DNA of 64,000 bases from Pseudomonadota bacterium (GTDB taxonomy: Bacteria > Bdellovibrionota > Bacteriovoracia > Bacteriovoracales > Bacteriovoracaceae), in the NCBI GenBank assembly GCA_027487515.1, contig JAIYDL010000021.1, positions 1-64,000 of the forward strand, given 5' to 3'. Shown here in pieces: positions 47,396-64,000 of this stretch (positions are counted from its first letter, which is position 1; each line of letters starts with the position of its first letter). A program made the position numbers and the translations under genes. Under the pieces are notes generated by a model. It saw only the letters and a program-made list of their open reading frames with translations, did not search any database and was not told the origin of the DNA.

Positions 47396-47789
47396 TCTTC
47401 AGGTTCACACACTGCGCAGAATGGAAGTGATTCACGTGCCACCACTTGAGTGCGTAGGAGATAACACTCTTAAAGGCGGGAGCGCCTGCTTTCGTGAAGA
47501 CGTTCAATTGATCTTTTTTGTTCTCGGCGGTTCCCGAGAACAAGTTTGCTCTAGACGCGGGTCTGAGGGTGAAGAAAAATTCTTCAGCATTGGAGGCGAG
47601 GTGCTCGTCGTTTTGTAAGGAGGCCTTCACGTCTGCGCGGAGGTTCTCAGGTTTCTCGACGGCATCAACGTAATAAATCTGTTGCACCTGAAGGGAGCAA
47701 GGCTTGGTGGTTCCTTTTACGGTGCCTCTGAATTCCGTTTGCGCGAGGCCAACGGTACTGAACACGAGAAGAGATAAAAAGACCTTCAT
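47382..47789 (-). CDS. Secreted protein of unknown function in the receptor operon
   Basis: 135 residues with a signal peptide (MKVFLSLLVFSTVGLAQ). Contains Cys in KPCSLQV and AQCVNLK and a C-terminal WWHVNHFHS cluster of aromatic and His residues that could bind metal. No family recognised. AGGAGG-like sequence lies upstream, and its end overlaps the TonB receptor start by 14 bp, so the two are co-translated. Confidence 0.6.
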   Translation of the reverse strand: MKVFLSLLVFSTVGLAQTEFRGTVKGTTKPCSLQVQQIYYVDAVEKPENLRADVKASLQNDEHLASNAEEFFFTLRPASRANLFSGTAENKKDQLNVFTKAGAPAFKSVISYALKWWHVNHFHSAQCVNLKNVQE

Positions 47790-47847
47790 AATTCCTCCTT
47801 GATTAAGAGACTAAATTTACGAGTTCAAAACATGTAAGCTAATTGCA

Positions 47848-47867
47848 GTTTATTCAAAGGAATAAAC
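47848..47867. repeat. AT-rich perfect inverted repeat in the receptor operon
   Basis: GTTTATTC-AAAG-GAATAAAC: an 8-bp perfect stem with a 4-base loop, located in the 98-bp gap between the His-rich protein gene and the next gene of the minus-strand run. It could be an internal terminator/attenuator or an operator for the downstream pair. Confidence 0.45.
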
Positions 47868-47887
47868 CTCACCACTCAGACCTCCGC

Positions 47888-49885: not shown

Positions 49886-52501
49886 TTACTCGTAGGCAAG
49901 CGCCTCTCGAAGTTTAAGCCTTGAGGCCCGGAGCGCTGGGAGGATGCCTGCGGAGAGGGAAACCACCACGCCGATGACGGAGAGAATGAGTAAGTCCTGC
50001 CCTGTGAAATAGAACTCTACCTTCCACCCTAAGAGCCGACTCAGCGTCCAGTTCACCCACACGTAGCCCACCGGCAAGGTCAGAAGAAATGCGACAACGA
50101 TCCCGGTCATCCCGAGGGTCACGGATTCCGTAAGAATCATGACGAGAAGCTGCCCTCGGGTCATGCCGATGGAGCGGATGCAACCGAGTTCTCGGAACCG
50201 TTGGAGAATCCCAATCAGAAACGAATTCAGAAGACCCAAGGTCCCGATGAAAAGCGCGATCCATTTGGTCGAATCCGACATGGCCATATTATTGTTGAGG
50301 TTCTTCTGCACTTCCTCGCCGATCTTGGAAGGAAGGTTCACCATCAAGTGTTCTTTTTGGTTGAGCCCCGGACCAACGAGATCGATGTAGGCCTTCCCGG
50401 TGATCTCCGGTGAATGCGCAATCGTGAAGAGAGTCACGAGGGGATCTTTCCAGTACTTCTTGTAGGTGTCGCGGGTCATGTAGATGACGCCGTTGGGGCT
50501 CGCGAATTCGCGGATGTTCCCTCCGATCCGGAACCGCTTCGGTCCCGCGGGGGTCTCGATGTCAAAGAAATCCCCCGGGCGCTTTTTAAACTTCGAAAGC
50601 ATGGTCTCGCTCATGAGGACCTGGTCTTGCGTCGGATCAAACAGGTTTCTTCCCAGGTCCATGCGGTCCCCTTCGATGGGATCGATGAACTGGTAGCGGG
50701 AGGCGGGGCCCGGGTTATCGAAGGCCTTCAGCATGAAGCGCTCACCGGAGATGGTCACGGGAACGATCCGAATGCCGTTGACCGCGTTTCTCCGCTCCGC
50801 TACGAGCACCTTCGGCAACTGGAGGAGCTTCTCTTTCAGGGACTCATGGAGCGGCTGGACCTGAAGCCCGGAGACACTTCCCCAGGAAGTCACGTTCACG
50901 GCGTTCGGTGTGCTCGTGATCGCGTTCGCCCAGGTGATGATGGTGGATTTGAACGACACGTTGATCGCGGAGACGATGATCACGAGGCTAAAGCCAAGGG
51001 AGAGATGGATCGATGTGCTCGCGGTGCGAGCGGGATTTTTCAGAAGGTTGGCGAGGGAAAAGTTTAGCAGAAACGGCAGCGGCAGGCGCTGGAGGTTCGA
51101 GAGAAAGAGCAGCACAAGGTAGGGGCCTGCCATGACGATTCCTGCGAGACCGGTCAGGAGAAACAGGGGTTGGACCTCTTTTCCTTGAAGGGCCTCGACG
51201 GCGTCGGAAGACACAGCGCCCGCACCGGTGAGGATCAGGAGGACGAATCCGAGGTAGCCAAAGAGCACAAGGTTTCGAGGTCGCTGGTGAAGACCGAAGT
51301 CCACCGTCGCCGGTTTGATCGCCTCGATCGGATGAATCTGGAGGGCCTTGTAGAGCGGGTACACCAGGGCCGCAGAAGAGCTCACGAACCCGAGGGCCAG
51401 ACCTTTCAGGAGGTGTTCGACGGTGAAGATGATCTCCATGCTTGAGACGTTGGTGAGGAGTGTCGCATTCATGCCCGCGGCCATTTGCTCCGCGGAGCCA
51501 TTGGCGAAGAGGACTCCGAGCCAGCAACCGAAGAGGGAGCTCACGAGCGAGAGGAACACGAACTCACCGGCGAAGAGCGCTACGATGTGGGAGTTGCCGG
51601 CGCCGAAGGCCCGGAGCGAACCAATGTCCTTGCGCCGCTGGGAGATCGCCGTGTTCACCGTATTGACGATGATGAGGAAGCCGACAAGGAACGCGATGAG
51701 GCCGAGCATCCCGGAGACGTCCTGAATGGATTTCACCATCTGCTGCATGGACACACTTTGCTCTTCCTTGTCTTCGACGCGGAACCGGCTTCCGAGGAGC
51801 CCTTTAAGCTGCGCCTGGACGGAAGCCACGGGAACCGTCTTATCTAAGATGAGATCGATCCGATCATAGAGTCCGTCTCTGCCGAAGTTGTAGCGAGCGG
51901 CGTCGATGTCCATGATCGCCATGCGGCCATTGAAGGCTTTGGCCGGCCCCACGTCATCCACCAGCCCTCGAATGGCGAAGTTCTTTACCCCCTGTTTGGT
52001 TAAGAGCTCCACCGTGTTCTCGAGCTCGAGGCCCCGCTCCTTCACCCAAGAGCGCGTGGCGATGATGCTGTCCGCTTGGTTCAAGAACGCCAAGGGATCC
52101 GGGATAATGTCCTCACCAGTTTTATTGTACTCGCGCACCGACGAGTCTTTCAAAAGATCGATGCCAAGAAAAATCATGGGCCCCGTGGATCCGGTTGGAT
52201 CTTCTTCGAGGTAGGCGTAGTTTATGATCAGTGGAATCGCTGCCTTAATGCCTGGGAGTCCTTTCACTTTCTCGAGTACCGAGTCCTCGAACCCCATTCC
52301 GTCAGACGTGATCGTGAGGTCGGCCTTCCCGGTCATGGATTCGACGTTCGCGTCCAAGGAGCGAAGGGTCGCGTCGTTCAGAAGAAGGATCGAGAGAAAA
52401 AGCGAGATCCCCAGGGAGACCCCGAGGAAGGTCAGGAAGGTGCGAAAGGGATTCAGGAGAAGATAGCGCAGGCTGAAGTAGCGAAAGAGGTTAAAAAACA
52501 C
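49886..52501 (-). CDS. FtsX-like ABC permease with two permease repeats (YbbP-like)
   Basis: 871 residues. N-terminal helix (MFFNLFRYFSLRYLLLNPFRTFLTFLGVSLG), large extracytoplasmic MacB-type domain, a first FtsX unit (LIAFLVGFLIIVNTVNTAISQRRKDIGSLRAFGA), further helices, then a second extracytoplasmic domain and a second FtsX unit (WIALFIGTLGLLNSFLIGILQRFRELGCIRSIGMTRGQLLVMILTES...LREALAYE). This duplicated design matches YbbP rather than the two-gene LolC/LolE pair. With the ATPase gene 8 bp upstream it should form a type VII ABC system that moves lipids, lipoproteins or drives periplasmic enzymes. Confidence 0.82.
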   Translation of the reverse strand: MFFNLFRYFSLRYLLLNPFRTFLTFLGVSLGISLFLSILLLNDATLRSLDANVESMTGKADLTITSDGMGFEDSVLEKVKGLPGIKAAIPLIINYAYLEEDPTGSTGPMIFLGIDLLKDSSVREYNKTGEDIIPDPLAFLNQADSIIATRSWVKERGLELENTVELLTKQGVKNFAIRGLVDDVGPAKAFNGRMAIMDIDAARYNFGRDGLYDRIDLILDKTVPVASVQAQLKGLLGSRFRVEDKEEQSVSMQQMVKSIQDVSGMLGLIAFLVGFLIIVNTVNTAISQRRKDIGSLRAFGAGNSHIVALFAGEFVFLSLVSSLFGCWLGVLFANGSAEQMAAGMNATLLTNVSSMEIIFTVEHLLKGLALGFVSSSAALVYPLYKALQIHPIEAIKPATVDFGLHQRPRNLVLFGYLGFVLLILTGAGAVSSDAVEALQGKEVQPLFLLTGLAGIVMAGPYLVLLFLSNLQRLPLPFLLNFSLANLLKNPARTASTSIHLSLGFSLVIIVSAINVSFKSTIITWANAITSTPNAVNVTSWGSVSGLQVQPLHESLKEKLLQLPKVLVAERRNAVNGIRIVPVTISGERFMLKAFDNPGPASRYQFIDPIEGDRMDLGRNLFDPTQDQVLMSETMLSKFKKRPGDFFDIETPAGPKRFRIGGNIREFASPNGVIYMTRDTYKKYWKDPLVTLFTIAHSPEITGKAYIDLVGPGLNQKEHLMVNLPSKIGEEVQKNLNNNMAMSDSTKWIALFIGTLGLLNSFLIGILQRFRELGCIRSIGMTRGQLLVMILTESVTLGMTGIVVAFLLTLPVGYVWVNWTLSRLLGWKVEFYFTGQDLLILSVIGVVVSLSAGILPALRASRLKLREALAYE

Positions 52502-52509
52502 GGGGCCTC

Positions 52510-53178
52510 CTAAACGACGACGCCGTCTTGCATGTGAATCCGACGATCAGCATAGTCCGCGGCCGACTTATCATGGGTCACCATGATGAGGGTCGTCTGA
52601 AACTCGGAGACCAGGTCTTTAAGGATCGCGAGGACTTCTTTCCCATTCTTCGTGTCGAGGTTCCCCGTCGGCTCATCCGCCAAGATGAGGGCCGGGCGGT
52701 TGACGAGGGCCCGAGCGATGGCCACTCGCTGCATCTCGCCCCCGGAGAGCTGGTGCGGCCGGTGATCAAGCCGATGGGACAGACCCAGGCGTGTGAGGAT
52801 CGTCTCCGCAGGTTTTCGAACTTCCGAGATCCGCCGCCCGTCGAGGAGGCACGGGAGTGCCACATTCTCGAGCACCGAAAGGGTCGGCATGAGGTTAAAA
52901 AACTGAAAGATGAAACCGAGGTGCCGGCGACGGAAGATCGTAAGGTCGTGATCCGAAAGTCCCCCGATCGCCTTGCCATCGATGCGGATCTCCCCGCCGG
53001 TTGGCCGATCGAGTGCCCCGAGGAGCTGAAGGAAAGTACTCTTCCCCGCTCCGCTCGGGCCCATCAACGAGACGAACTCACCTTTCGCGATATCCAGGTT
53101 GATTCCTTTGAGGATTTCAACATCCTGAGCAGAGCTTGTGTAAGTCTTCCGGAGGTCCCGGACTTCGATGAAGGACAT
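52510..53178 (-). CDS. LolD/YbbA-type ABC ATPase
   Basis: 222 residues with Walker [11 protein letters not shown]-loop [19 protein letters not shown], signature QLSGGEMQR, Walker [13 protein letters not shown] and switch His VTHD. The [12 protein letters not shown]-loop context is typical of MacB/LolD/FtsE ATPases. It energises the downstream two-repeat permease. Divergent from the lipid/polyketide operon, so it may export or position that operon's product. Confidence 0.88.
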
Positions 53179-53348: not shown

Positions 53349-56300
53349 ATGGCCATCCTGATTGTTCACTCCACCTCAACCTCCGAGCTCCTCGAGCTCC
53401 TGCCGAGATTACGTTTCTCACCGGCCCTCCTCACATCACTGGGTCAAGGCATCCGCCGAACGGTGATCGTCGCCGAGAGCGCAGCAGACTTTTCGAAGAA
53501 GCTCGAGCTCCTCCGGCAGCGGCTCTCCGGAGACACCGAATTCTCTCTCTTGAACGAGGGCATCTTTCACTTCGCGAGGACGCTCACCGACGCTGAGGTC
53601 GCCTTTGTCTTCCCGGGCCAGGGTAGTCAATCGCCGGGGATGCTCCGCCAGCTTCACTCGGAACCCGTCTTCAAACAGCACTGGGATCAGTCCATCGAAG
53701 GCATCAGAGACCTTGGGGTTGAACTCGGACCATTGCTCGACGGGCACCCTCCTGGAGACCTGGACCTCACTCAGCATGCGCAACCGGCCCTCGCCGTGGC
53801 CGAAGCCGCGTGCCTGGGACTCTTGCGATCCTACGGTGTGCATCCAGCGATGGTGGCCGGGCATAGCTTCGGCGAACTGGTGGCCCTGGCCGCGGCGGGG
53901 AGCTATTCTCTTCCGACTCTCCTCGAACTCAGTGTCGCTCGAGGAGAACTCATGGCCCGGGCCAACGAGCACGCGGCGGGCAAGATGCTGGCGGTGGTTG
54001 ACCGAAGCCAGCACCGGTGGCAGACCTTTCACGAGTCCCTGAAAGCGCGCGGTCTTGTGACCGATGAGCTCCTGGCCAACATCAACACTCCCTCTCAGCT
54101 CGTGTATTCCGGGCACGAACATGAAATCCTCCAGCTCCGAGACCACTGCCAGAGCGCTGGGATTCGCTGCTCCCTTCTCTCGGCGTCGGCGGCTTTCCAC
54201 AGTCCCCTCATGGGCCATGCGGAGGGGTTATTCCTCGAGAAGCTCCGCTCCCTCCGCGACCGATTTACGGCGCCGCAGATCGAGGTCTGTTCCTCGATCC
54301 CAGCGCGAAGCTATCGCGGCCCCCAGAGCTTCGAAGAGAACTTAAGTGCGCAGCTCTCCTCGCGCGTCGCCTGGGTGGACTGCATCGAGCGCATGATCCT
54401 AAACGGTGCCCGACTCTTCATCGAGGTGGGCCCGAAGTCCGTGTTGACCAAGACCATTAGTGAGATCCACGCCGGGAACGACGTCCTTGGGATTGCCCTC
54501 GATGGGCCCTACCCCTTCCAGCATGTCCTGGGGTTCCTGGCGGCGCTCGGGCTCAAGCTCTCGGTTCCGGTGAGTTCACAGGCCGTGAACTTTGAGACCC
54601 CGACGAAGAACAAAGTCATCAAAGGGTTCCTAGAAAAACAGAAAGAACTCCTCCGGGAGCTTCAGGGCCATCAGGACTCTCAGTTCCACGCTCAGGCCGA
54701 GCGACAAGTTCTCCAGGACACGGAGGAAGTGCTCTCGAAGTATTTTGCCATCGCCGATTCCGTGCCTCGGGGGAGCACGGCACCCATCGAAGAGACCGTC
54801 GACGGACCAACGCAAATCATCCTCGAAGAAGTCTCCCAGCTCACGGGGTTTCGCCCAGAAGAAATCAAACTCGACGCCCGCTTTGACAACGACCTCTACT
54901 TAGACTCGATCACGCGCCTGGAGCTCCTCTCCCAGCTCTCGGCACGCTTCCACGCGGACACCACTGACATGAGTGCCCTCCTGAACGCAAACTCTGTCCG
55001 AGACCTCGCTGCGATCATTAGAAAATACGAGGTCACCTCCCCCGTAGAGGACCTCGGCGAAGAACTCCTTTGGGTTCGGCGGGAGATCGCGAATTACACT
55101 GGGGTGGCGGAAGAACGGATCCACCTCGACACCCGGTTCAGCGAAGACCTGATGCTCGACTCCCTGATCAAAACGGAACTCTTGGGAGGCCTCCAGGCCC
55201 GCTTCCCGGGACGAAAGATCGAGCTCCAGTCCTTCCATCGGGTCAACTCCCTCCGGGACCTTGGTCAGGCCTTCGCGTCCGCAACGGAGCTTCCGGCCGG
55301 GAAGAGCGGGCCAGAAAGGAAGTTTTCAAAGTCCATGCGCGAGGGTGTTGCCGCCTACCTCAACGTGAGTCTCGATAAGGTCCTCACCACCAGTAGCTTC
55401 GAGCACGATCTCAAGATGAACATCTTCGAGAAAGAAGACTTCATCAACTCGCTGGTCATCAAGCACCCGTACCTCCAGCTGGGGCTGCGAGAACTTCTGC
55501 ATGCGCCGACCGTCGGGGACGTGCTTCAGCTCGAGAAACTCTTTGACCGTCGCTCGGAAGGACGGATCGTCGAGGAAGAAGTCGTCCGCTACCGGTTTAA
55601 GAAAATCGACATCGACCGCTCGAACTTAAACCAGAGTGAGTTCTCGGAGAACATCCTCGTTCTGCACGCCAACGAGGAAGCCCTCTCTCCGGACATCGCC
55701 AACTACATCCGCTCGGTGAGTCCGCGCTCAACGGTGAAAGGGTTGAGTGGCCTCTCCCTAGGTCCGTTTCAGCAGACGATCAGCGAGTTCCCAAAGACAT
55801 CCCAGCTCGACATTCTCCTTCTGGTTTCTCCGCGGGGGCGGATGACGGACTGGGAAGCGAATCTCGAAGAGTACGTCCAGCGCTCGTTCCAATTCGCCAA
55901 AAGCCTAGAACTGGTACTGGAGCACTTCCCGTCGGTTACCTTAAAGATCCTGATCCACGGGACGCAGAACGCCTTCACGCGGGGCCTCGTTGGCCTCACG
56001 CGGTCGCTCACCAGAGAGTACAAGATCTTCGTCAACATCGTCGACATGCCGTGGACGAAGATGGCCCCGGCGGCCCTCCCGTGGGTTCTCCTCTGGGACA
56101 AGACCGAGGCGCGGCGGGACCGGTGCCGCTTTTACCGAAAAGACGGCAAGGTCTTCACCACGGAGGTCATCGACCGGGAGACCGCGATCGACGACGGCAC
56201 CTCGATCCGCCTGCCGGAACACCCCCACATCCTCCTCGTGGGTGGTGCGCGAGGGATTACGTCCGAGGTGGCGAAGTTCCTGGCCGAGCACCGAGGGGCG

Positions 56301-57092
56301 CGGATCTCCGCCGCTGGCCGCACTCCCATCGGAGAAGAGATGCCTTACAGTGACTGCGTCACCGACGACGAACTCCGGGAGAGGCTCAAGCTCGAACTCA
56401 GCGCGACTCTCCCCGGGGCCGCCCAAGAGGAGCGCACCGCCCACTTCAACAGAAGACTTCAGATCGTTACCAACCAGCGAGAAATCTGGAAGACCAAGGC
56501 GTCGATCGAGAGCCGCGGTGGCGAGTTTCGCTACCACCAGATCGATGCGGTGAACCTCGAGACCCTCCGGCAGATGGTCACCGAGGTCGAGGCAGAGCTG
56601 GGGCCCATCTCCGGCATCATCCACGCCGCGGGGATCACGCGGGACGGTCTCGTCAAGAATAAGTCCTTTGAAGATTTCCGTGAGGTGGTGCTGACGAAGG
56701 TGAAGTCGGCGCTCAATTTGTATTCCCTGTTTCACAAACGCCGGGACCTCTCGTTCGTCTGCTTTTTCAGTTCCCTTTCGAGCTGGTCCGGGGCACCGGG
56801 CCAGACCGATTACTCTCTGGCCAATGAGATCTTAAATGTCTTGGCAGAGAACTGGAACCGGAAGGCAAGCTTCCCCGTCGCCGCCCTCCTCTGGTCCGTC
56901 TGGAGCGAGACGGGCCTCGCCTCGGAGTCTCTGATCCAGCAGATGCGCATGCTCAAGCTCGGTGGAATTTCCAACCATGCCGGCATCCGCCTCTTCCGGG
57001 AGGAGCTCTTCAAGCATGGCCTCCGGGACCCCAAGGTCCTCTTCTCACCGGAGTCGACTCTTCGCTACGGCCTTGAGGTGAACCATGAGTAG
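53349..57092 (+). CDS. AT-ACP-ACP-(pseudo-ACP)-KR multidomain synthase without its own ketosynthase
   Basis: 1247 residues. Acyltransferase (about 85-400): FPGQGSQ, nucleophile Ser173 in GHSFGE, His284 in AAFHSPLM, and IEVGPKSVL. ACP1 (about 485-560) with phosphopantetheine Ser520 in YLDSITRLE; ACP2 (about 570-645) with Ser605 in MLDSLIKTE. A third ACP-like unit (about 660-735) has KMNIFEKED where D-S should be (Asn691-Ile692), so it cannot be loaded. Ketoreductase (about 745-1200): structural half, then GGARGI (965-970), IIHAAGITRDGLV, Ser1141-1144 and Tyr1155 in SSLSSWSGAPGQTDYSLANE. The helical insert before HQIDAVN recalls PUFA-synthase KR domains. The ketosynthase is encoded by the next gene (8-bp overlap). 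The AT motif does not decide malonyl versus other extender. Confidence 0.88.
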   Translation: MAILIVHSTSTSELLELLPRLRFSPALLTSLGQGIRRTVIVAESAADFSKKLELLRQRLSGDTEFSLLNEGIFHFARTLTDAEVAFVFPGQGSQSPGMLRQLHSEPVFKQHWDQSIEGIRDLGVELGPLLDGHPPGDLDLTQHAQPALAVAEAACLGLLRSYGVHPAMVAGHSFGELVALAAAGSYSLPTLLELSVARGELMARANEHAAGKMLAVVDRSQHRWQTFHESLKARGLVTDELLANINTPSQLVYSGHEHEILQLRDHCQSAGIRCSLLSASAAFHSPLMGHAEGLFLEKLRSLRDRFTAPQIEVCSSIPARSYRGPQSFEENLSAQLSSRVAWVDCIERMILNGARLFIEVGPKSVLTKTISEIHAGNDVLGIALDGPYPFQHVLGFLAALGLKLSVPVSSQAVNFETPTKNKVIKGFLEKQKELLRELQGHQDSQFHAQAERQVLQDTEEVLSKYFAIADSVPRGSTAPIEETVDGPTQIILEEVSQLTGFRPEEIKLDARFDNDLYLDSITRLELLSQLSARFHADTTDMSALLNANSVRDLAAIIRKYEVTSPVEDLGEELLWVRREIANYTGVAEERIHLDTRFSEDLMLDSLIKTELLGGLQARFPGRKIELQSFHRVNSLRDLGQAFASATELPAGKSGPERKFSKSMREGVAAYLNVSLDKVLTTSSFEHDLKMNIFEKEDFINSLVIKHPYLQLGLRELLHAPTVGDVLQLEKLFDRRSEGRIVEEEVVRYRFKKIDIDRSNLNQSEFSENILVLHANEEALSPDIANYIRSVSPRSTVKGLSGLSLGPFQQTISEFPKTSQLDILLLVSPRGRMTDWEANLEEYVQRSFQFAKSLELVLEHFPSVTLKILIHGTQNAFTRGLVGLTRSLTREYKIFVNIVDMPWTKMAPAALPWVLLWDKTEARRDRCRFYRKDGKVFTTEVIDRETAIDDGTSIRLPEHPHILLVGGARGITSEVAKFLAEHRGARISAAGRTPIGEEMPYSDCVTDDELRERLKLELSATLPGAAQEERTAHFNRRLQIVTNQREIWKTKASIESRGGEFRYHQIDAVNLETLRQMVTEVEAELGPISGIIHAAGITRDGLVKNKSFEDFREVVLTKVKSALNLYSLFHKRRDLSFVCFFSSLSSWSGAPGQTDYSLANEILNVLAENWNRKASFPVAALLWSVWSETGLASESLIQQMRMLKLGGISNHAGIRLFREELFKHGLRDPKVLFSPESTLRYGLEVNHE

Positions 57093-59862
57093 GTCACTGT
57101 ACATCACCGCGATGGCCGGCGTTTTCCCTGGAGCTGACTCGGTCGAAACGCTTTGGGGGAATCTCCTCGCTGCGAAGAGAGCTCCAATTACGAAGCTCGA
57201 TGAGTACTGGGGACTTCCCGCCAAGTCCTACGATTCCCCTCACGCCGATGGCCACATTTCCATGGACTCGGGCCATCTCGCCGACTACCCACTTCGGACC
57301 TCTGGCTTCCCTCGCCAGATCCAGGCCGCGATCGACGTCGGAACAGAAGTGCTCCGAGGGGTTGGAACCCGAAGGGTCGGGCTCGTCGTGGCTACGGAGT
57401 GGACTGATCCCTCGTTTTATCAAGCAGAACTCGGTCTTCGACCGAAGAGCGAGGGGTATTCCGTCGAGCGACAGCTCGAGACGATCAAGCGAGAACTCAA
57501 GATCACGGGCCCGGCCCTCGCCGTGGACACGGCCTGCGCCTCTTCACTCTATGCTCTCGATCTGGCGCGAGGCCTCCTTCACACCTCTGCCCTCGAGGGG
57601 GTTGTGGTCTTGGGTCTAAATCTCTACCTCCATTCCTTCCTCTACCGCGGCTTCACGAAGCTCGGGGCCTTGTCAAAAACTCGAGAGCTCCGGTCCTTCG
57701 GCGAAACCGCCGACGGGATTGTTCCCGGTGAAGCCGCTTGCGGCGTCTTCGTCACGGGCAACGCGACCAACGCCATCGCCGAGGTGTGTGGCATTGGCCT
57801 TTCTTCAGACGGCAACGAAGGTTCGGCGTTTAGCCCAGGCCTTGAGGGCCAGACCTCTGCCTACGTTCGCGCCTACCGAGACGCAGGCCTCGATCCCGCC
57901 CGCATCGATTACGTCGAAGCCCATGGCACCGCAACTGTCCTCGGCGACCAGACTGAAGCCGAAGGTCTGCGGCGGTTTTTTAACCGTCCACTGCTGGTGG
58001 GTTCATCGAAGGCGAACGTGGGCCATACGCTTGCGGCTTCGGGGCTGGTGGCCGTGATCAAGGCGAGCCTCATGATCCAGCACAAGACTCTCGTCCCCCA
58101 CCTGAAGTTCCGCTCTCATCCAGAGCACCTTAAAAAGGGCATCACTCAGCCCGCTTCCGCCGTCGCTCTTTTACAAGAGACCATCCACATCGGCGTCTCT
58201 TCCTTTGGCTTCGGGGGAAGTAACGCCCACCTGATTCTGCGCACCCCACGGCCCCCGCAAGGGTCGGCGTCTTACTCGCCACGAATCTTCCTCAAGGGCG
58301 TTGAGGTGAGATCGGGACAAGAGATGGCCCTCGTGCCCATGCCTCTTAGAGATGTCCCCATGGGGCCTCGCATGCAGGAGCGCCTCGATCCGCTTCAGCG
58401 CTGGACGGTCACCGCCACACAACGACTCCTGGGCCCGACGACGCCAGAGGAGCGGAAGAAGCTCTCCTGTGTCTTGCTCAATAATCTTGGAGGTGAGCTG
58501 AGCCTCGCCTTCGAAAAGAAGTACCGCTTGGGCGCCCCAGGGCCCGAGCTCTCCATCGAGGCCGTCGCCTCGACCCTACCCTCTATGCTGACGGGGAACG
58601 CGGCCCTCATGTTTAACTTCCGAGGCCACCACATGCTCATCAGCGGGTCCGAGAACACGATCGAATCCCTCCTCTCCCTCTCACCCTACCTCCTTAAGAC
58701 AGCGGCCGGGGACCTCATCCTCGGCACCGTCCAGCAGGATTCACTGATCCTCCTGCTTCACCTAAGCCTCGCTGACGAGGGGGCCATGGCCGAGATGACA
58801 CTTTCCTCGGGACCTCACCAAGATCACCCGAGGCCCGCCGACGCCCTCGCGAAATTTCTCCAGGGCCGCGAAGAAGCTTCGCTCACCATCGGTGACCTCC
58901 AGCTCTTCTTTAGGCCCCTGGCATCTTCGGTCCAGGACGACGCTGCCCTCAGAGACCGGATCCTCCGGACGAGCAGTGAGAACAAACAGGTCGCCCTCGA
59001 GTACCTGAAGCTTCTGGAGTTCCTGAAACCGACCCCCGTGAAGGCCGAGCGCTTTGGTGCCTTCCTGAAGGACTGCGAACGCTCTCTGTCTCGCGCAACC
59101 GCAACCCTGCTGGTGGACGAATCCCACCCCTATTTCTTCGACCATCCCCTGGATCACATCCCCGGGATTTTGACCATCCACGGCTGCGAGGAACTCCTCG
59201 CCTACTACCTCGAAGAGGACTACCTCATCACGGGCCTCACCATCCGCTTCACGCGGTTCTTGGAAAAGGACGAACCCATCGAACTGACCCTCACCGAGCG
59301 GGAGAGCGGCAACATCGAGTTCGACGTCAAGCAAGGCAAGAAGAAGGCCGGGATTCTGAAGGCCGTGATCCGTCGAGGCAGTGTGACCGAAGAGTTCGGG
59401 CAGGCCCAAGGGAGTGTTCCGATCGAGGAGAAGAAGTGGACCCACAAGCACCGGGATGAGAATGTCCTCATCAGTGCCCTGGCACCGGACCTGGAGAGAG
59501 TCTCGAGCCTCCGGTTGGGTTGTAACGAGCGAGGCGCCTTCTTCGCAACCATGCCGCGACCGTCGAGCCTCTACTACGCTGAAGTCACTCGGCAGTTTGT
59601 CATGCTCCTCGCCCACCAGAAAAAAGAGATCCCACTCTCTTCCAAGATGAACCTCATCGCCACCGAGATCCAGCTTTCGGCCTGGGTGAGACCACCCTTC
59701 GAACTGAAGCTCAAGGACTTCACTCTCACGGAGACGGAGGACTTCCTGGTGGCCGACGTTTCCATCGAGTTCATACATAACGAGAAAGGTTTCGGTAGCG
59801 GACGGATCAAAGCGCAAGTCGTCACCGCTGAATACTACAAAGGTCAGCGAGGTGAAGCATGA
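57085..59862 (+). CDS. Ketosynthase fused to a KS-like (CLF?) remnant and AfsA-type hotdog domains
   Basis: 925 residues. Ketosynthase (1-390) is intact: Cys151 in VDTACASS, His280 in VEAHGTAT, His314 in KANVGHTLAASG, and GFGGSNAH. Residues about 430-560 resemble part of a second ketosynthase (VASTLPSMLTGNAALMFNFRGHHMLISGSENT), but the nucleophile Cys is missing, as in chain-length factors. Residues about 671-765 match the AfsA family (PF03756) hotdog: DESHPYFFDHPLDHIPGILTI; a second hotdog-like unit spans about 785-915. In PUFA synthases PfaC carries KS-CLF-DH-DH, where the DHs are also hotdogs, so this is a reduced analogue with AfsA-type domains possibly acting as dehydratase or condensing an acyl chain. 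Overlaps both neighbours. Confidence 0.85.
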   Translation: MSRSLYITAMAGVFPGADSVETLWGNLLAAKRAPITKLDEYWGLPAKSYDSPHADGHISMDSGHLADYPLRTSGFPRQIQAAIDVGTEVLRGVGTRRVGLVVATEWTDPSFYQAELGLRPKSEGYSVERQLETIKRELKITGPALAVDTACASSLYALDLARGLLHTSALEGVVVLGLNLYLHSFLYRGFTKLGALSKTRELRSFGETADGIVPGEAACGVFVTGNATNAIAEVCGIGLSSDGNEGSAFSPGLEGQTSAYVRAYRDAGLDPARIDYVEAHGTATVLGDQTEAEGLRRFFNRPLLVGSSKANVGHTLAASGLVAVIKASLMIQHKTLVPHLKFRSHPEHLKKGITQPASAVALLQETIHIGVSSFGFGGSNAHLILRTPRPPQGSASYSPRIFLKGVEVRSGQEMALVPMPLRDVPMGPRMQERLDPLQRWTVTATQRLLGPTTPEERKKLSCVLLNNLGGELSLAFEKKYRLGAPGPELSIEAVASTLPSMLTGNAALMFNFRGHHMLISGSENTIESLLSLSPYLLKTAAGDLILGTVQQDSLILLLHLSLADEGAMAEMTLSSGPHQDHPRPADALAKFLQGREEASLTIGDLQLFFRPLASSVQDDAALRDRILRTSSENKQVALEYLKLLEFLKPTPVKAERFGAFLKDCERSLSRATATLLVDESHPYFFDHPLDHIPGILTIHGCEELLAYYLEEDYLITGLTIRFTRFLEKDEPIELTLTERESGNIEFDVKQGKKKAGILKAVIRRGSVTEEFGQAQGSVPIEEKKWTHKHRDENVLISALAPDLERVSSLRLGCNERGAFFATMPRPSSLYYAEVTRQFVMLLAHQKKEIPLSSKMNLIATEIQLSAWVRPPFELKLKDFTLTETEDFLVADVSIEFIHNEKGFGSGRIKAQVVTAEYYKGQRGEA

Positions 59863-61340
59863 GCTATTGCCTTGTGACCGACCTCCTCAGACCGGAGCTC
59901 CAGAAACTCACGGCGATAAACTTCATCGACCGAGGTCGACGGGTCACCTACGCGGACCTCGTGGACCGAGCGCGCTCGTACCTTTCTCACCTTCGCCGCA
60001 TCGGCGTCCGGAAGGGCGACTATGTCCTGACCGCCTTTGAGTCTGAGGAGGATTTAGCCGTTGCCCTTCTCTGCCTCTTCTCTCTCGGTGCCATCAACGT
60101 GCCGGTGAACCCCGCGGTCACGGACACAGAGCTCGAAAAGATCGGCAGACTCATTCCTCTTCGGTTCACGTTCACGTCCTATGGGTTTCTTCTCTCTCAT
60201 GGGCGCTCCCTCTCGGGCCTCTCAGGCCTCGACGCCGTTCTGACGTTAAACGAAGGGAGCGAGGAGCTCTCTGCCGCGCTGTTTTTTCTGCACCACAAGC
60301 TCGAAGCCGCGGGCCGCAAGGACAGAATCCAGCCACCCGCGCCCACCCAGGTGGTGACCTGTCACTTCACCTACAAAGGCTTCGGAACGCCCCTCGGGGT
60401 TGAGCACACCTACGCAGACTACTGCGGAGCGGTCGCCAGCTGCGAGGAGATCTTCGGCTTCACGCCCGGGCGGCGGCTCCTGACTCTCCTTCCCTGCTAT
60501 CCGGTGTTTGGGCTCGTCACGAACCTCCTCTTCCCCCTCGCGAAAGGCTGCGAGCTCGTGATCAAAGAAAAAAAACTCGGAGGGATCCTCAAGGCCATCG
60601 AGGAGCACCGGATCGACCACCTCAACGTGGTCCCCGTGCTCCTCGAGAAGATGCTCCTCGAGGCCTCGAAGCTCTCCGCGGCGCCGGACCTTTCACGGCT
60701 GTGCATCGTGGCCGGAGGCAGTTCGGTGACCCCCGAGCTCCATCAAGAATTCTCTCAAACGTTTAAGCTTTCTCCGAACCAGGGTTACGGTCTGACGGAG
60801 TCCCTTCCGATCCTCACCAACCGACCCGGGAGTGCGAAAGCAGGAACTCTTGGCACACTCATGCGCCCGGAAGTTGAACTCAAGATCTGCGATGCCCGAG
60901 GCTTCGAGGTCCCCGCTGGAAAGGCCGGGGAGATCTGTCTTAAGGGATCCGGCGTCATCTCCCGCTACATCGGCGAAGGTGAGGCCCGGGAAGTTTTTTT
61001 CCGGAACGGCTGGCTCCGCACCGGCGACATCGGATTCCTCGATGAAGACGGGCACGTGGTCTTCGTTGGCCGAAGACTCAATTTCACGAAGATCCTGGGC
61101 AACATGGTCGACCTCAAAGAGATCGAAGAGACCGCCAAAGAACTCTTCGGTGTGAAGAATGCCCGGAGCTATGTCACCGTCGAGCGGGGCCGAGAGAAGC
61201 TCTCCTTGTCGGTGTTCGTCGCCCGAGATTTTGCGTTCACTCGGAAAGACCTCTCGGAGCATCTTCGCTCCCGCCTCTCCGCCTTCAAGGTCCCGGGCCT
61301 GATCCGCATCTATAAAAGTTCCTACGATGAGGTTCTATGA
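59859..61340 (+). CDS. AMP-ligase-family protein with incomplete catalytic motifs
   Basis: 493 residues, coupled by a 4-bp overlap. Adenylate-forming fold: QGYGLTES (308-315), TGDIGFLDEDGHVVFVGR (388-405), KILGN (411-415). The phosphate-binding loop reads HFTYKGFGTPLGVEHT rather than TSGTTGxPKGV, and the C-terminus stops at YKSSYDEVL, just before the position where the A10 catalytic Lys (PKTxxGK) lies. It may bind an acyl-adenylate or acyl-ACP without full activation chemistry, or use other residues. Likely role: loading or releasing an acyl chain for the synthase. Confidence 0.78.
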   Translation: MSYCLVTDLLRPELQKLTAINFIDRGRRVTYADLVDRARSYLSHLRRIGVRKGDYVLTAFESEEDLAVALLCLFSLGAINVPVNPAVTDTELEKIGRLIPLRFTFTSYGFLLSHGRSLSGLSGLDAVLTLNEGSEELSAALFFLHHKLEAAGRKDRIQPPAPTQVVTCHFTYKGFGTPLGVEHTYADYCGAVASCEEIFGFTPGRRLLTLLPCYPVFGLVTNLLFPLAKGCELVIKEKKLGGILKAIEEHRIDHLNVVPVLLEKMLLEASKLSAAPDLSRLCIVAGGSSVTPELHQEFSQTFKLSPNQGYGLTESLPILTNRPGSAKAGTLGTLMRPEVELKICDARGFEVPAGKAGEICLKGSGVISRYIGEGEAREVFFRNGWLRTGDIGFLDEDGHVVFVGRRLNFTKILGNMVDLKEIEETAKELFGVKNARSYVTVERGREKLSLSVFVARDFAFTRKDLSEHLRSRLSAFKVPGLIRIYKSSYDEVL

Positions 61341-61999
61341 AAGATAAACTCTCCAAGCTCTCTCCCCTCCTCTTTACCATCTTCGGGCTCCTGTTTCTCA
61401 CGGCGGTGACCTTCCGGCAGTTCTTAACGCCAAGGCCGCTGCCGGTGCTGATCATTCAGGTCCTCACGATTCTCTTTTACGTCGGCTACATGGCCCTCGA
61501 GTCAAAGATCTCCATCAAAGAGGTCGGTAAAAAAGGAAGCGATGACTACGACCGGCACACGATGGAACTGGCGGCGGTGATCAAGATCGGCCTCTTGACG
61601 AGCTGCTTAGGGCTGGGGAATCAACTTCTTCCCCTCGAATCCTATGTTCTGTCCGCGGGCCTCGGCATGGCCATCATGCTTCTGGGCTTCCTCATCAGAG
61701 GCAAAAGTATTTTGGACCTCGGGGAACACTACGGCCACCGCATCAGACCCTTGGGGCCGCATCTCCATGACCGTGGGGTTTACTCCGTTATCCGTCACGG
61801 GGCGTACACCGGGACATTCTTCATTCACCTCGGTGTCACGGTCGTTTTCTTGAACACCGTCTCCGCCGTCATGATCTTCGCCTGGCTGGGAGTTGTGATC
61901 CTTCGGATTAGGCTAGAAGAAAATCTTCTTCTGCAGGATAATAGGTACAAAGACTACGCCAAGCGCACAAAGTACAAAATGATCCCTGCGATCTGGTAA
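61337..61999 (+). CDS. Isoprenylcysteine carboxyl methyltransferase (ICMT)-like membrane protein 1
   Basis: 220 residues, ATGA overlap with the ligase gene. Five hydrophobic segments, with the ICMT/PEMT C-terminal signature: GVYSVIRHGAYTGTFF (RHxxYxG binds SAM) and RLEENLLLQDNRYKDYAKRTKYKMIPAIW. In bacteria such proteins methylate carboxyl or hydroxyl groups of membrane-embedded lipids and polyketides. The neighbouring gene encodes a second copy, about one third identical by eye. Confidence 0.8.
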   Translation: MKDKLSKLSPLLFTIFGLLFLTAVTFRQFLTPRPLPVLIIQVLTILFYVGYMALESKISIKEVGKKGSDDYDRHTMELAAVIKIGLLTSCLGLGNQLLPLESYVLSAGLGMAIMLLGFLIRGKSILDLGEHYGHRIRPLGPHLHDRGVYSVIRHGAYTGTFFIHLGVTVVFLNTVSAVMIFAWLGVVILRIRLEENLLLQDNRYKDYAKRTKYKMIPAIW

Positions 62000-62007
62000 G
62001 GACCCCT

Positions 62008-62658
62008 ATGAAAAATCTCCAAGGACAGCTCCCCATCATTCTCTCGATCCTCTTCCTCGGCTCCATCAGTGCGGCGACCTACCAGCGGGTCCAGGTCCTC
62101 CACGGAACAACTCTTTGGGCACCGACGCTCTTCTTCGCGGGCCTCTACCTCCTGTGGCTCCTCCTCGAGTCGAAGGTGGCCACCAAGGAGATTGGCCAAA
62201 CCGAGACGCGCATCGACAAGTACTCTCTAGAAATCTACGCCGCTTCCCGTGCGGTCGTGGTTCTGACCGGACTCCTGATCCCGTCTCGCATGGGAGAGTT
62301 CGGCGTCCTCCATGCCATCGGGCTCTTGCTCTTCGTCGCTGCTCTCGCCTTCCGGCTGACGGCGATCCGTAGATTGGGGCAATTCTACTCCCATCGGGTG
62401 CGAGTGAAGGAAGGCCACCAAATCATCAGCGAAGGTCCCTACAATTTTGTTCGGCACCCCGCCTACACTGGCATGATTCTCTCCCACTTGGGTTTTGCTC
62501 TCTTCTTCCTAAATCCTTGGACACTGAGTCTCTGGGCCATCTTTCACGTGCCGGCCGTCGTCTACCGAATCCTGGTTGAAGAAGTCGCTCTGTTTAAGAT
62601 CCCGGGCTACGGCGACTACGCCCGGACACGCAAGCGCCTCATCCCCTTCGTATGGTAA
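62008..62658 (+). CDS. Isoprenylcysteine carboxyl methyltransferase (ICMT)-like membrane protein 2
   Basis: 216 residues, 8 bp after the first copy. Same architecture and signature: GPYNFVRHPAYTGMILSHLGF and RILVEEVALFKIPGYGDYARTRKRLIPFVW, with matching start (LPIILSILFLGSISAATYQR). The canonical RHPAYTG is kept here, whereas copy 1 has RHGAYTG. Tandem copies suggest two methylation sites, a heteromer, or a specialised second copy. Confidence 0.8.
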   Translation: MKNLQGQLPIILSILFLGSISAATYQRVQVLHGTTLWAPTLFFAGLYLLWLLLESKVATKEIGQTETRIDKYSLEIYAASRAVVVLTGLLIPSRMGEFGVLHAIGLLLFVAALAFRLTAIRRLGQFYSHRVRVKEGHQIISEGPYNFVRHPAYTGMILSHLGFALFFLNPWTLSLWAIFHVPAVVYRILVEEVALFKIPGYGDYARTRKRLIPFVW

Positions 62659-63602
62659 TAGACCCGCAGACCACAGAGCTTGTCATCACCGGTGCCAACG
62701 GCTTCGTCGGGCGCGCGGTTCTCCTCCGGGCCCGGTCTCACTTTCCGGAGCTCCCGATCAAGGCCCTCATCCGCCAGGAACCGCGGCAGTACCTTCCAGG
62801 GATTACTTACCTGAAAGGAGAACTCCCCCAGGCGATCCCACAGGAACTCTTCCAGCGCGAGAACGTCATCCTACTGCACTTCGCGTCTCTCCTCAAGGCA
62901 CCGTCCTACCAGAGTTTCCACCGCACAAACGTCGAAGGTACGGCCCGCCTTCTCGAAGCGGGGGGCGAGCGGATTAAGAAAATCATCTACGGAAGCTCCA
63001 TGTCCGTTTACGGGCAGGGGCCCTTCCACCGTATCTCAGAAGCGACCCTGCCAGATCCGGAAACGGACTTGGCGCGCTCCCGGTGGGGGGCGGAGCAGGA
63101 GATCCTTCGCTTCGCAAGGAAGGACGGTCGGAGCGCGGTTCTGCTTCGGCCACGATTTATTCTGGGTGCTGGTGATAAAGAAACTCTTCCCGCTTTCCTC
63201 CGGCTTCATCGGAAAGGACTTCGCATCGGCGACGGCGAACAGCGCTTCAGCTTCATCGAGATCGATGACTACGCAAAGCTCATCTGCCAGCTCGCCGAGT
63301 TCCATTCGGGGAGCGCCGAGGCCCTGAACGTCGCCTACGACGAGAGTCTGAGTTTCAATCAAATGGTTCACGCCCTGGGCGCCTTCGAGCATCGCTCGAC
63401 GGTTCCCGCCGGTTTTCTGATCGCTCTCGCCGGATGGATCCCACCGTTACGAAACCTCCGAACGAAGCTCCAACTCACCGGGCTCTCCCAGGAGCTTTCT
63501 GTGGCCAAGCTCCGGGAGTCATACCCCGAATTAACCAACAGCAGGGCCACGGATAAATTCATGGCCATCGTCCGAGAAAACAAGAGGCTCCATGAAACTT
63601 AA
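62652..63602 (+). CDS. NAD-dependent epimerase/dehydratase-family protein (extended SDR)
   Basis: 316 residues, 7-bp overlap with the upstream gene. Rossmann GxxGxxG is GANGFVG (14-20); HFASLLKAPSYQSFHRTNVEGTARLLEA and IYGSSMSVYG (Ser115/116) fit extended SDRs. The catalytic YxxxK reads LARSR (140-144: Leu140, Arg144), so the usual Tyr and Lys are absent. It keeps RPRFILGAGDKETLP and the FIEIDDYAK region. Either a changed mechanism, an NAD(P)-binding scaffold, or a 3-beta-HSD-like variant. Overlaps the next gene by 11 bp. Confidence 0.75.
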   Translation: MVIDPQTTELVITGANGFVGRAVLLRARSHFPELPIKALIRQEPRQYLPGITYLKGELPQAIPQELFQRENVILLHFASLLKAPSYQSFHRTNVEGTARLLEAGGERIKKIIYGSSMSVYGQGPFHRISEATLPDPETDLARSRWGAEQEILRFARKDGRSAVLLRPRFILGAGDKETLPAFLRLHRKGLRIGDGEQRFSFIEIDDYAKLICQLAEFHSGSAEALNVAYDESLSFNQMVHALGAFEHRSTVPAGFLIALAGWIPPLRNLRTKLQLTGLSQELSVAKLRESYPELTNSRATDKFMAIVRENKRLHET

Positions 63603-64000
63603 GCGCGAGTTCATCAAGAGCTACCAGTCGGGGCCCACGGACAGTGAGGTGGGTGGGAAGTTTCACAAGCAGGCACTCATGGCAGCCGCGGGCCTTCCCG
63701 TTCCCCCGTTCTTTTGCCTCACGACCGAGGTCTATCCGGAGTTTTCCCTGAGCCTCAAGCCTAGGCTTCAGGCCATCGTCCAGGGCATCGACTGGTCGAG
63801 TGACCGGAGTGTCACCGCCGCCAGTAAAGAAGTCCATGCCGCGATCACAAGTCTCGAGTTCCCAGAGGATTTCAAAGGGAAGATCCTAGAGGCGTTCGAT
63901 CAGCACTTCGGTTCAACGGATCTCGTCTCGGTGCGCTCCTCCATGGTGGCGAAGCGGGCCGAGCACTCTGAAGATTCCGTGCTCCACGCTTTCGCCGGAA
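63592..64000 (+). CDS. PEP synthase / pyruvate-phosphate-dikinase-like protein, N-terminal part only
   Basis: 136 codons visible; the gene runs off the right edge. Start ATG at 63592 overlaps the epimerase stop by 11 bp. The visible part is the ATP-grasp N-terminal domain of the PPDK/PEP-synthase/rifampin-phosphotransferase family: VGGKFHKQALMAAAGLPVPPFFCLTT and later DLVSVRSSMVAKRAEHSEDSVLHAFAG (family: VRSSAxxEDSxxxSFAG). Given the operon, phosphorylation of a small-molecule product, as done by rifampin phosphotransferase, is more likely than central metabolism, but this is inference. Confidence 0.75.
   Translation, partial: MKLKREFIKSYQSGPTDSEVGGKFHKQALMAAAGLPVPPFFCLTTEVYPEFSLSLKPRLQAIVQGIDWSSDRSVTAASKEVHAAITSLEFPEDFKGKILEAFDQHFGSTDLVSVRSSMVAKRAEHSEDSVLHAFAG

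Follow-up and report, generated by a model that had tools for sequence, protein, structure and literature searches.

Organization of the locus

The window analysed here (a 64,000-nucleotide stretch of DNA) ends in a run of seven same-strand genes (ORF calls) that starts at position 53349 and whose seventh member is cut by the window edge at 64000. The junctions between neighbouring genes measure -8, -4, -4, +8, -7 and -11 bp, in agreement with the tight packing described in an initial annotation of this DNA, which also expected the operon to continue beyond the window: the seventh gene indeed ends at 66279 and is followed, at a junction of -4, by a UbiA-like gene and then by a convergent P450 gene and a gene for a hexapeptide protein. 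Pfam matches correspond to an AT domain, two ACP stretches and a KR domain for gene 1, to a KS domain and an AfsA hotdog (two stretches) for gene 2, and to AMP-binding, ICMT (twice), epimerase/3beta-HSD type SDR and PPDK_N for genes 3 to 7.

A conserved ten-gene cassette, with eight genes shared by a second phylum

The gene-order search proposed in the initial annotation found the same order in 5 of the 368 genomes of the window's phylum, with the ten-gene set present in all five and identities ranging from 39 to 88%; the cassette is split across two contigs in G088, its last gene is cut by a contig end in G079 and the contig of G077 ends at the operon. Genes 1 to 8 are likewise found in this order in a Myxococcota genome, with identities of 36% for the KS subunit (matched part), 33% for the ligase, 36% and 49% for the first and second ICMT proteins, 36% for the SDR, 47% for the PEP-synthase-like protein (PEPS) and 38% for the UbiA-like protein. 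Since the same order is found in these five genomes and, for genes 1 to 8, in another phylum, the arrangement goes beyond chance. Nine cassette genes (PEPS left out) are under purifying selection, with a ratio of 0.05-0.13. As the initial annotation had anticipated, no characterised cluster was matched within the searches made; the cassette is conserved and matches none of the described classes that could be tested.

Two genes for an exporter lie beside the operon in the window, on the reverse strand: a LolD/DevA-like ABC ATPase that scores below both curated cut-offs (52510..53178, divergent from the operon) and its partner, an FtsX/LolCE-like permease of 871 aa with two FtsX stretches (49886..52501). 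An ABC-type transporter was found beside the cassette in G000, G088 and G114 and another type in G450, while no ABC pair was detected next to the cassette in G079. An ABC/FtsX pair is also present in G097, for which the KS-subunit search gave no match, and the FtsX permease occurs in two genomes of the genus without a KS-subunit match. In the Myxococcota genome, the cassette lies upstream of export genes that match DevC, DevA and an HlyD protein best, without reaching the curated cut-offs. The LolD/DevA-like ATPase is a probable, non-exclusive export partner of the cassette.

A split iterative synthase with an AfsA-type double hotdog

The first PKS subunit (53349..57092, forward strand, 1247 aa) is organised as AT - ACP - ACP - pseudo-ACP - KR according to its ORF, Pfam matches and alignment, and its orthologues are 79, 42, 40 and 40% identical. 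It thus shows the PfaA-like succession of tandem ACPs and KR, with two active ACPs followed by a pseudo-ACP, in which an alignment of five homologues inspected by eye revealed DLKMNIFEKEDF at the position expected for the active serine. This pseudo-ACP is the most constrained of the five domains compared. The second PKS subunit (57085..59862, forward strand, 925 aa; orthologues 73-46% identical) carries a KS domain with DTACASS, HGTAT and NxGHT motifs, a short CLF-like middle part and a double AfsA-type hotdog. The split synthase described initially, with its AT, ACP and KR domains on one subunit and its KS and AfsA hotdogs on the other, was therefore recovered from the Pfam domains; the weak point of that description is the term "CLF-like", as the match of the middle part (about 240 residues) to FabF-type KS is confined to the N-terminal half of the latter, in register but with an E value of 0.33, and a profile-profile comparison with the protein's own KS found nothing (probability 0.3%). 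In this part, the homologue from Myxococcota (1123 aa) is longer and resembles a fuller KS/CLF when inspected by eye.

The double hotdog reached 52.9 bits against the AfsA family PF03756 (cut-off 24.0) and 71.6 bits against the ScbA/BarX model, below its cut-off of 200, and it matched 24 plasmid records, of which the 12 listed are all annotated as AfsA- or ScbA-type. In an alignment of seven sequences, FFDHPLDHxPGIL is invariant, as are the E, R and Q of ExxRQ. Compared with what we take to be the organization of stand-alone AfsA/ScbA proteins, the hotdog order is reversed and the E-x-x-R pair is kept in only one half. As a PKS subunit with an AfsA-type domain at its C-terminus, the gene 2 product has the feature that defines AfsA-terminated (PBS) PKSs. 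In the gladiostatin and gladiofungin synthases, as described in the available parts of the sources, such a domain condenses a beta-keto chain with dihydroxyacetone phosphate (DHAP), releasing the chain (PMC7756379, PMC7756420); for gladiostatin, this release has been reconstituted in vitro (PMC7756379; also PMC7756420), and gladiofungin comes with a candidate phosphatase (PMC7756420). The likeness extends to a subunit that ends in a PF03756 domain without a thioesterase. The gladiostatin/gladiofungin PKSs are however multimodular trans-AT systems, whereas the split synthase of the cassette is iterative, includes an AT and is accompanied by ICMT, PEPS and UbiA genes that the available parts of these two sources do not mention (PMC7756379, PMC7756420).

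The other system to be compared is the PUFA synthase (PfaA-D), which shares with the heterocyst glycolipid synthases and with the cassette an AT, tandem ACPs, a KR and a KS-(CLF)-double hotdog arrangement, likely used iteratively. The double hotdog could then be an ordinary dehydratase pair, with a polyene fatty acid that the ligase, the acyltransferase and the UbiA-like protein would then load into a lipid, without any C3 unit. We consider this unlikely, yet it is the alternative that survives best. Hotdog folds include dehydratases, an active KR would be unusual if no dehydratase accompanied it, the order of gene 2 (KS, middle part, two hotdogs) is PfaC-like, and heterocyst glycolipids, which the DevC/DevA-like exporter genes of the Myxococcota cassette recall, are made by a related PKS. 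Gene 1 also matches PfaA (TIGR02813) at 237 bits, but this is far below the cut-off of 1010. The available part of PMC13291983 describes split, CLF-lacking pfa gene variants in hybrid clusters and does not mention UbiA, AfsA or PEP synthase. Against a dehydratase pair, the hotdogs gave no match to a FabA-type domain at E 0.05 or better, only to PF03756, and the same hotdog type stands alone, AfsA-like, beside ICMT and PEPS in Streptomyces, with no PKS annotated in the stretches inspected. In one relative, this double hotdog follows KS-AT-ACP-TE and inspection by eye reveals no KR, so that it is hardly a dehydratase in that case. In addition, none of the 6 cassette genomes, as incomplete assemblies (85-100% complete where known), gave a match to PfaD, the enoyl reductase of PUFA synthesis, and the sole match in a search of seven genomes came from G059, which carries a cousin locus. 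Compared with PfaA-D, the cassette KS has moved away from AT-ACP-KR and one ACP is dead but conserved. The initial comparison with a reduced PUFA synthase is thus correct only in part, given the hotdog type and the lack of a PfaD match.

A non-canonical ligase and putative tailoring enzymes

Gene 3 (59859..61340, forward strand, 493 aa) encodes a non-canonical acyl-AMP-ligase-like protein according to its Pfam AMP-binding match and alignment. CHFTYKGFGTPLG stands in place of the P-loop, and the C-terminal region with the catalytic Lys is absent, by eye, from 6 of 6 homologues, so that the protein lacks the two features that define ANL ligases. CHFTYKGxGxPLG is nevertheless common to five of the six homologues, the G114 variant being CHMTFKGFATPLG. 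The "defective-looking" ligase of the initial annotation is therefore non-canonical but, with this motif kept across homologues, conserved and not decaying. It would have been kept as an enzyme whose chemistry has changed, and might act on the starter or the free acid without ordinary adenylation.

The next two genes, 61337..61999 (220 aa) and 62008..62658 (216 aa), both on the forward strand, encode the two ICMT-like membrane methyltransferases predicted at the outset, with 37.7 and 69.6 bits against PF04140 (cut-off 24.0); neither reaches the NCBIfam isopcys_mtase model (36 and 57 vs 160). They are followed by an extended SDR (62652..63602, forward strand, 316 aa) that resembles 3beta-HSD/OleD, with a score well short of the OleD cut-off. 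Beyond the window lie the P450 (67116-68459, reverse strand, 447 aa), 68-87% identical in the other four cassettes and with terpene oxidases as best named matches, below the cut-off, and the hexapeptide acyltransferase-like protein (68483-69145, forward strand, 220 aa), 62-86% identical in the other four cassettes, over the part left by the contig end in G079.

The PEPS/UbiA pair

Gene 7 (63592..66279, forward strand, in the window to 64000) encodes an 895-aa PEP-synthase-like phosphotransferase/ligase, as initially proposed, with 212 bits for PPDK_N and 81 bits for PEP-utilizers. It has both the ATP-binding and the catalytic His domains of PEPS-like phospho-His enzymes, in the order ATP-binding, middle and C-terminal phospho-His, the GSMLSH motif of the latter being invariant in four sequences. 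A G..LSH-type motif is found in all 27 PEPS-like ORFs of at least 700 aa (BLAST-picked, 26 loci), while the motif count is circular for the 32-sequence tree set, since 23 of these 32 sequences were picked with the motif. In the PEPS tree of that set, with an imposed root, four cassettes, the Myxococcota protein and two Streptomyces proteins form one clade (support 1.0).

The adjoining gene (66276-67160, forward strand, start codon chosen manually) encodes a UbiA-like protein of 294 aa with a DExKDxxxD motif, in which D64, D68 and D72 are invariant in 18 sequences. As a single sequence it scores 25.0 bits against PF01040, below the cut-off of 34.2, while its profile matches the solved UbiA enzyme 6m31 at 4e-12 over positions 36-143. 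PEPS adjoins UbiA in 24 of the 26 loci inspected, out of 66 places; this partner is not visible from the window alone.

PEPS shares with PigC/RedH and rifampin phosphotransferase the order ATP-binding - middle - C-terminal phospho-His, without a PEP-binding domain match. Together with bit scores of 328 for PigC and 325 for RedH, and with PigE-like reductase or aminotransferase-reductase proteins beside PEPS/UbiA in neighbouring family loci, this could suggest that PEPS joins two separately made halves like PigC/RedH/TamQ, one of them anchored or modified by the UbiA-like protein. We find this improbable: the scores are far below the family cut-offs (1300 for PigC, 1350 for RedH) and equalled by the rifampin phosphotransferase family (320 bits), the middle domain and the context differ, a PigE-like amine-forming gene and pyrrole genes are absent from the ten cassette genes, and the cassette PEPS lies apart from a Methylocystis protein taken as PigC by its neighbours, on which the tree was rooted. 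It is even harder to credit a quinone or meroterpenoid pathway, in which an iterative PKS would make an aromatic acid (the KS, AT, KR, hotdog and ACP content resembles 6-methylsalicylate synthases, and a UbiA-like protein and a P450 matching terpene oxidases are present), UbiA would prenylate it and the two ICMT proteins would make two methoxy groups, as the solved structures nearest to the UbiA subfamily are digeranylgeranylglyceryl phosphate synthase (4e-12) and not hydroxybenzoate prenyltransferase (0.7), and as PEPS is left without a role and the AfsA-type hotdog unexplained.

In the Rv2047c-pks12 operon (mycoketide), the PKS for a phosphorylated lipid likewise has an epimerase/SDR and a PEP-utilising domain next to it; there, both domains belong to one protein, whereas they are separate genes in the cassette.

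Proposed pathway

We tentatively favour, with somewhat less than even confidence, a pathway in which an iterative PKS makes an unsaturated chain that undergoes AfsA-type release, probably onto a C3 unit, O-methylation, PEPS/UbiA processing and export, yielding a membrane-associated polyketide-derived lipid; a membrane-associated lipid or polyketide, as first suggested, is a likely product. The two subunits together supply a single iterative set of domains (AT, carrier proteins, KR and KS), whose catalytic motifs look intact by eye. As searches for a PfaD-type reductase gave no match, the chain would be expected to remain unsaturated, presumably as a polyene. By analogy with gladiostatin/gladiofungin, the AfsA-type double hotdog would most likely release it onto a small C3 alcohol, giving a phosphorylated butenolide-like head group that the two ICMT-like membrane enzymes may methylate. 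PEPS, whose ATP-binding and phospho-histidine domains are intact, would phosphorylate or activate an intermediate, the UbiA-like protein could attach or transfer the activated group in the membrane, the SDR and the P450 would adjust the oxidation state and a LolCDE/MacB/DevBCA-type ABC exporter would move the lipid outward.

Several observations count against AfsA-type release. Because the same synthase has an active KR, its final round would have to leave a beta-keto group for such a release, and programming for this is seen nowhere in the data. The reversed hotdog order and the lost E-x-x-R point the same way, as does the absence of any phosphatase family among the ten cassette genes (Pfam). 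The single PF03756 stretch of the S. clavuligerus AfsA-like protein and the sub-threshold Pfam score of the UbiA-like protein also count against the pathway as a whole, as do the FtsX permease in genomes that gave no KS-subunit match, the G079 cassette with no ABC pair beside it and the incompleteness of the assemblies behind the PfaD result.

A broader and speculative idea, which we hold to be improbable, is that PEPS/UbiA is a general and hitherto undescribed two-enzyme system acting on non-isoprenoid lipids: PEPS would phosphorylate an allylic phosphate (e.g., the phosphooxymethyl of an AfsA-made butenolide) into a prenyl-diphosphate mimic, which would serve the UbiA-like protein as the electrophile for alkylating a membrane head group. 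The pair would act in several lipid pathways, with PKS/AfsA, OleBC-like or PigE-like partners, across four phyla or more (that of the window as well as Myxococcota, Actinomycetota and Pseudomonadota). Should PEPS/UbiA turn out to be a widespread module for joining lipids, the 24 paired loci, and probably many others, could be interpreted.

A PKS-free core in Streptomyces

On plasmid pSCL4 of S. clavuligerus, genes for an AfsA-type hotdog protein, an ICMT, a PEPS and a UbiA are contiguous (BB341_RS28270-28285), and p1 of S. durmitorensis carries AfsA-hotdog, ICMT, nitroreductase, PEPS and P450 genes. These clusters share with the cassette four core enzymes (three plus a P450 in S. durmitorensis) and the same PEPS clade, but differ from it by the lack of an annotated PKS in both stretches (two KAS III genes lie close to that of S. 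durmitorensis) and by a single ICMT, to which the second cassette ICMT is closer than the first. This PKS-free AfsA/ICMT/PEPS/UbiA core is not visible from the window alone, and no publication on either cluster was found in the literature searched. Together with the Streptomyces core, the gene order shared between two phyla defines a conserved cluster family that links AfsA-type hotdog, PEP-synthase-like and UbiA-like enzymes, a combination for which no joint report was found in that literature. Since S. clavuligerus is cultivable, the function of the core is directly testable.

A conserved ten-gene cassette in one family of the phylum

ORF and Pfam searches recovered the seven consecutive genes with the domains described in the initial annotation, and the predicted continuation of the operon past the window was borne out when we read further along contig C16 (156,725 bases, the window being C16:1-64000) of the G000 assembly (3.4 Mb, 27 contigs). 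Gene 7, on the plus strand, encodes a complete PEP-synthase-like protein (PEPS) of 895 aa and ends at 66279 (ORF and domain searches), and domain searches identified, further along, a UbiA-like gene (66276-67160), a cytochrome P450 gene on the opposite strand (67116-68459) and a gene for a hexapeptide protein (68483-69145). A search for this gene order, suggested in the initial annotation, found the ten genes in one and the same order in 5 of 368 genomes of the phylum, all five carriers being members of one family. In carrier G088, continuity of the cassette can only be inferred because a contig end breaks it inside gene 7, and in G079 a contig end truncates the tenth gene. Since the P450 (68-87% identity across cassettes) and the hexapeptide protein (62-86%) are conserved to the same degree as the core, we consider them part of the set; the SDR, with 39-47% identity outside the genus, and the UbiA-like gene, with about 41-48%, rank among the most variable.

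Gene 2, the KS-hotdog subunit, has matches in 43 of the 368 genomes, and these are full-length in five (G000 itself; G088, 73%; G114, 51%; G079 and G077, 49%), while the others are restricted to the KS part, the strongest being in G059. When 84,980 species genomes were scanned by pattern, the best 80 of 549 relatives included a single full-length match, locus L004 (JAIYDC010000098.1), which is the same carrier as G088 and not an additional one, the others being KS stretches. In two other phyla, searches run without a positive control found no cassette in 375 genomes around a Syntrophobacteraceae genome or in 398 genomes around a Vibrio genome. Recent horizontal transfer was also considered: cassette and flanks are close in G+C content in all five genomes for which they were compared, G077 being left out (58.6 vs 55.4/58.1%; 52.2 vs 52.3%; 42.3 vs 45.1%; 35.1 vs 37.0%; 61.3 vs 62.7/62.9%), and there is thus no sign of such an event.

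Several other features were noted in these genomes. G059 carries a cousin PKS (L116, contig C75) made of a ligase-AT-ACP-KR fusion (1702 aa) and a KS-hotdog protein (1216 aa), together with a UbiA-like gene truncated where the contig ends, and it has PfaD on another contig. Beyond the cassette of G000, C16 69972-80566 (L003:5972-7813 and L003:11011-16566) encodes a tandem pair of look-alike secreted proteins and an 1851-aa protein of repeated units of ~100 residues, as judged by eye. Within the window, at 45284-49693, a 703-aa outer-membrane-receptor-like ORF adjoins a protein of 601 aa that has, by eye, a stretch rich in histidine and acidic residues; the pair may serve in metal uptake.

Recurrence of the cassette in Myxococcota and constraint on its ligase

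A profile built from the middle and hotdog parts of gene 2 extended the search to a second phylum. On the 22 genomes behind the named loci, this profile gave a strong match in the genome of L004 and one weak match; among 282 genomes of the Enhygromyxa phylum (Myxococcota), it matched G450 strongly and G462 weakly, and among 183 genomes of the order of G450 it matched G450, G1514 and, weakly, one more. G450 keeps the cassette order from PKS1 through the KS-middle-hotdog gene, ligase, ICMT1, ICMT2, SDR and PEPS to UbiA. After UbiA come genes for a permease, an ATPase and an HlyD-like protein; DevC, DevA and, lower in the list, DevB are respectively among their best matches, none reaching its curated cut-off. 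In the PKS1 of G450, one ACP is active and a second has Ala for the active Ser (by eye), which corresponds to the pseudo-ACP of the window.

The ligase of G450 is 33% identical to that of the window and its P-loop is replaced by the same altered motif, CHFTYKGLGYPLGALHTY; among the loci collected by that stage, a pattern scan found this motif in cassette ligases only. Comparing G000 with G088, nonsynonymous/synonymous ratios, which are rough because synonymous sites are near saturation, were 0.05-0.13 for nine cassette genes (PEPS was not compared), with 0.057 for the ligase and 0.03 for the neighbouring ABC ATPase; the pseudo-ACP had the lowest value (0.052) among the five domains of gene 1, whose borders were roughly set. 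These ratios rule out decay. The ligase had initially been called defective-looking, and the reading of it as a decayed gene or pseudogene is ruled out by purifying selection (0.06) and by an altered motif kept in another phylum.

An OleBCD-like olefin cluster was considered for the OleD-like SDR (52 vs 580 bits) and for an OleB-OleC-like fusion found in other UbiA loci (type A, below), and was rejected since the cassette ligase is without OleC features. No paper on the gene combination of the cassette was found among the matches listed: PMC13367870 concerns an NRPS signal unrelated to it, and PMC13291983 describes PUFA-synthase hybrids without the partner genes of the cassette.

A PKS-free core in Streptomyces

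On plasmid pSCL4 of S. clavuligerus (L185:16351-21728, BB341_RS28270 to RS28285), genes for an AfsA-hotdog protein, an ICMT, a PEPS (40.8% identity over 98%) and a UbiA of the cassette subfamily (E 8e-21, annotated "hypothetical") lie in a row, and plasmid p1 of S. durmitorensis carries AfsA-hotdog, ICMT, nitroreductase, PEPS (35.9%) and P450 genes. A tree of 32 sequences, its root imposed, places four cassette PEPS, that of G450 and both Streptomyces proteins in one clade (support 1.0). Of the two ICMTs of the cassette, ICMT2 is the closer one to the Streptomyces enzymes. These shared gene rows, the PEPS clade and the closeness of ICMT2 therefore indicate that AfsA-hotdog, ICMT and PEPS (with UbiA or P450) stay together as a unit, to which the operon of the window adds its own chain-making PKS. 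The pSCL4 row offers a testable form of this core without a PKS. By family, the ICMT enzymes are likely to methylate the product.

The PEPS/UbiA pair and its other neighbourhoods

UbiA relatives (E <= 1e-8) occur at 66 places in 57 of the 129 genomes of the family. We inspected 26 of these places, picked for rank and genus spread and not at random, and found a direct PEPS-like neighbour in 24. The two exceptions are L152, which stops at a contig edge, and L162 (7356-15629, in G109), which has phosphonate genes instead. In L162, UbiA is followed by PEP mutase, TPP-dependent decarboxylase, Fe-alcohol dehydrogenase, FabF-like KS and acyltransferase genes, and the locus resembles one for a phosphonolipid.

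Two recurrent arrangements, full or partial, were named from one or two tested representatives and extended by BLAST clusters. Type A (L138, L148, L153-L156, L159, L163, L164) combines a formyltransferase-like gene, an OleB-OleC-like fusion (alpha/beta hydrolase-AMP ligase), UbiA and PEPS with divergent genes for a lipid kinase, an SDR, a PigE-type reductase and a DUF3419 (BtaA-like) protein. Type B (G000:C11 30.9-42 kb, or L135; L151 in G083; L157 in G085; L158 in G081; L160 in G088) comprises a P450 (not called in L157), PEPS, UbiA, a CDP-archaeol-synthase-like gene (PF01864, tested in L135), two MacB/FtsX permeases, an ABC ATPase and a LolA-like protein (tested in L160), with a class III aminotransferase-reductase of PigE type nearby (tested in L158) and a second PEPS-like gene closing the locus. 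UbiA shares one ORF with an OleC-like ligase, adjoining a PEPS-like gene, at L165:159-2588 (809 aa) and L166:8477-10963 (828 aa), the UbiA BLAST match in the latter being short (39 residues). An alphaproteobacterial plasmid, from Roseinatronobacter sp. S2 (L189:523-8507), carries a row of UbiA-like, PEPS-like, DUF3419, two hypothetical and AMP-binding genes.

An 18-sequence UbiA profile matched, among solved structures, digeranylgeranylglyceryl phosphate synthase best (4e-12) and chlorophyll synthase at 1e-4. UbiA may be the joining enzyme. The PEPS domains of the cassette are intact in domain searches, and a G..LSH-type histidine motif is present in 27/27 PEPS-like ORFs picked without using it. 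A true PEP synthase of central metabolism is contradicted by the lack of a PEP-binding domain match and by gene context; from its domains, PEPS is likely a phosphotransferase or activating ligase. The mycobacterial Rv2047c-pks12 operon, in which the PKS of a phosphorylated lipid is accompanied by an epimerase/PEP-utilising protein (PMC7058343), is a loose parallel.

Probable chain building by the split synthase and possible release by the gene 2 hotdogs

The split synthase probably builds the chain, which would stay unsaturated since PfaD was found in none of the 6 cassette genomes searched. A profile comparison of the middle part of gene 2 with its own KS gave no match, leaving the initial "CLF-like" label unproven. 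The two C-terminal hotdog halves match AfsA (PF03756, 52.9 bits, cut-off 24.0) and score 71.6 bits against ScbA/BarX, below the cut-off of 200; seven sequences share, without change, FFDHPLDHxPGIL and the E, R and Q of ExxRQ. Among 72,556 plasmid records the hotdogs have 24 matches, all from Streptomyces and Aliiroseovarius, and the 12 of them that were listed carry AfsA- or ScbA-type annotations. In G1514, a double hotdog of the gene 2 type closes a 2604-aa protein read by eye as ligase, ACP, KS, AT, DH-like part, ACP, TE and hotdogs, with KR absent; tools support the ligase, KS, AT and hotdog profile match only.

These hotdogs could act in dehydration or, as in AfsA-type enzymes, in chain release. 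We prefer release because there is precedent for it in AfsA-like PKS domains: that of gladiostatin, C-terminal, releases the chain in vitro by condensing beta-ketothioesters with DHAP (PMC7756379), and gladiofungin biosynthesis needs such a C-terminal domain (PMC7756420). The main argument against release, however, is the active KR in the synthase, and we give AfsA-type release about an even chance.

A possible exporter next to the cassette

In G000, G088 and G114 the cassette has a LolD-like ATPase and an FtsX/LolCE-like permease as neighbours, and export of the lipid by this LolCDE-like system is plausible. The FtsX permease is present in 4 of 26 genomes of the genus, two of which (G092, G097) gave no KS-subunit match, so that we reject the view that the exporter belongs strictly to the operon; in G097, the genes around the permease also differ. 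The window further encodes, at 37875-39996, a LolA-like protein (PF17131) together with a protein of 455 aa, whose relatives in G097 and G114 come after the ABC/FtsX genes; these are probably parts of a single export system, split apart in the window.
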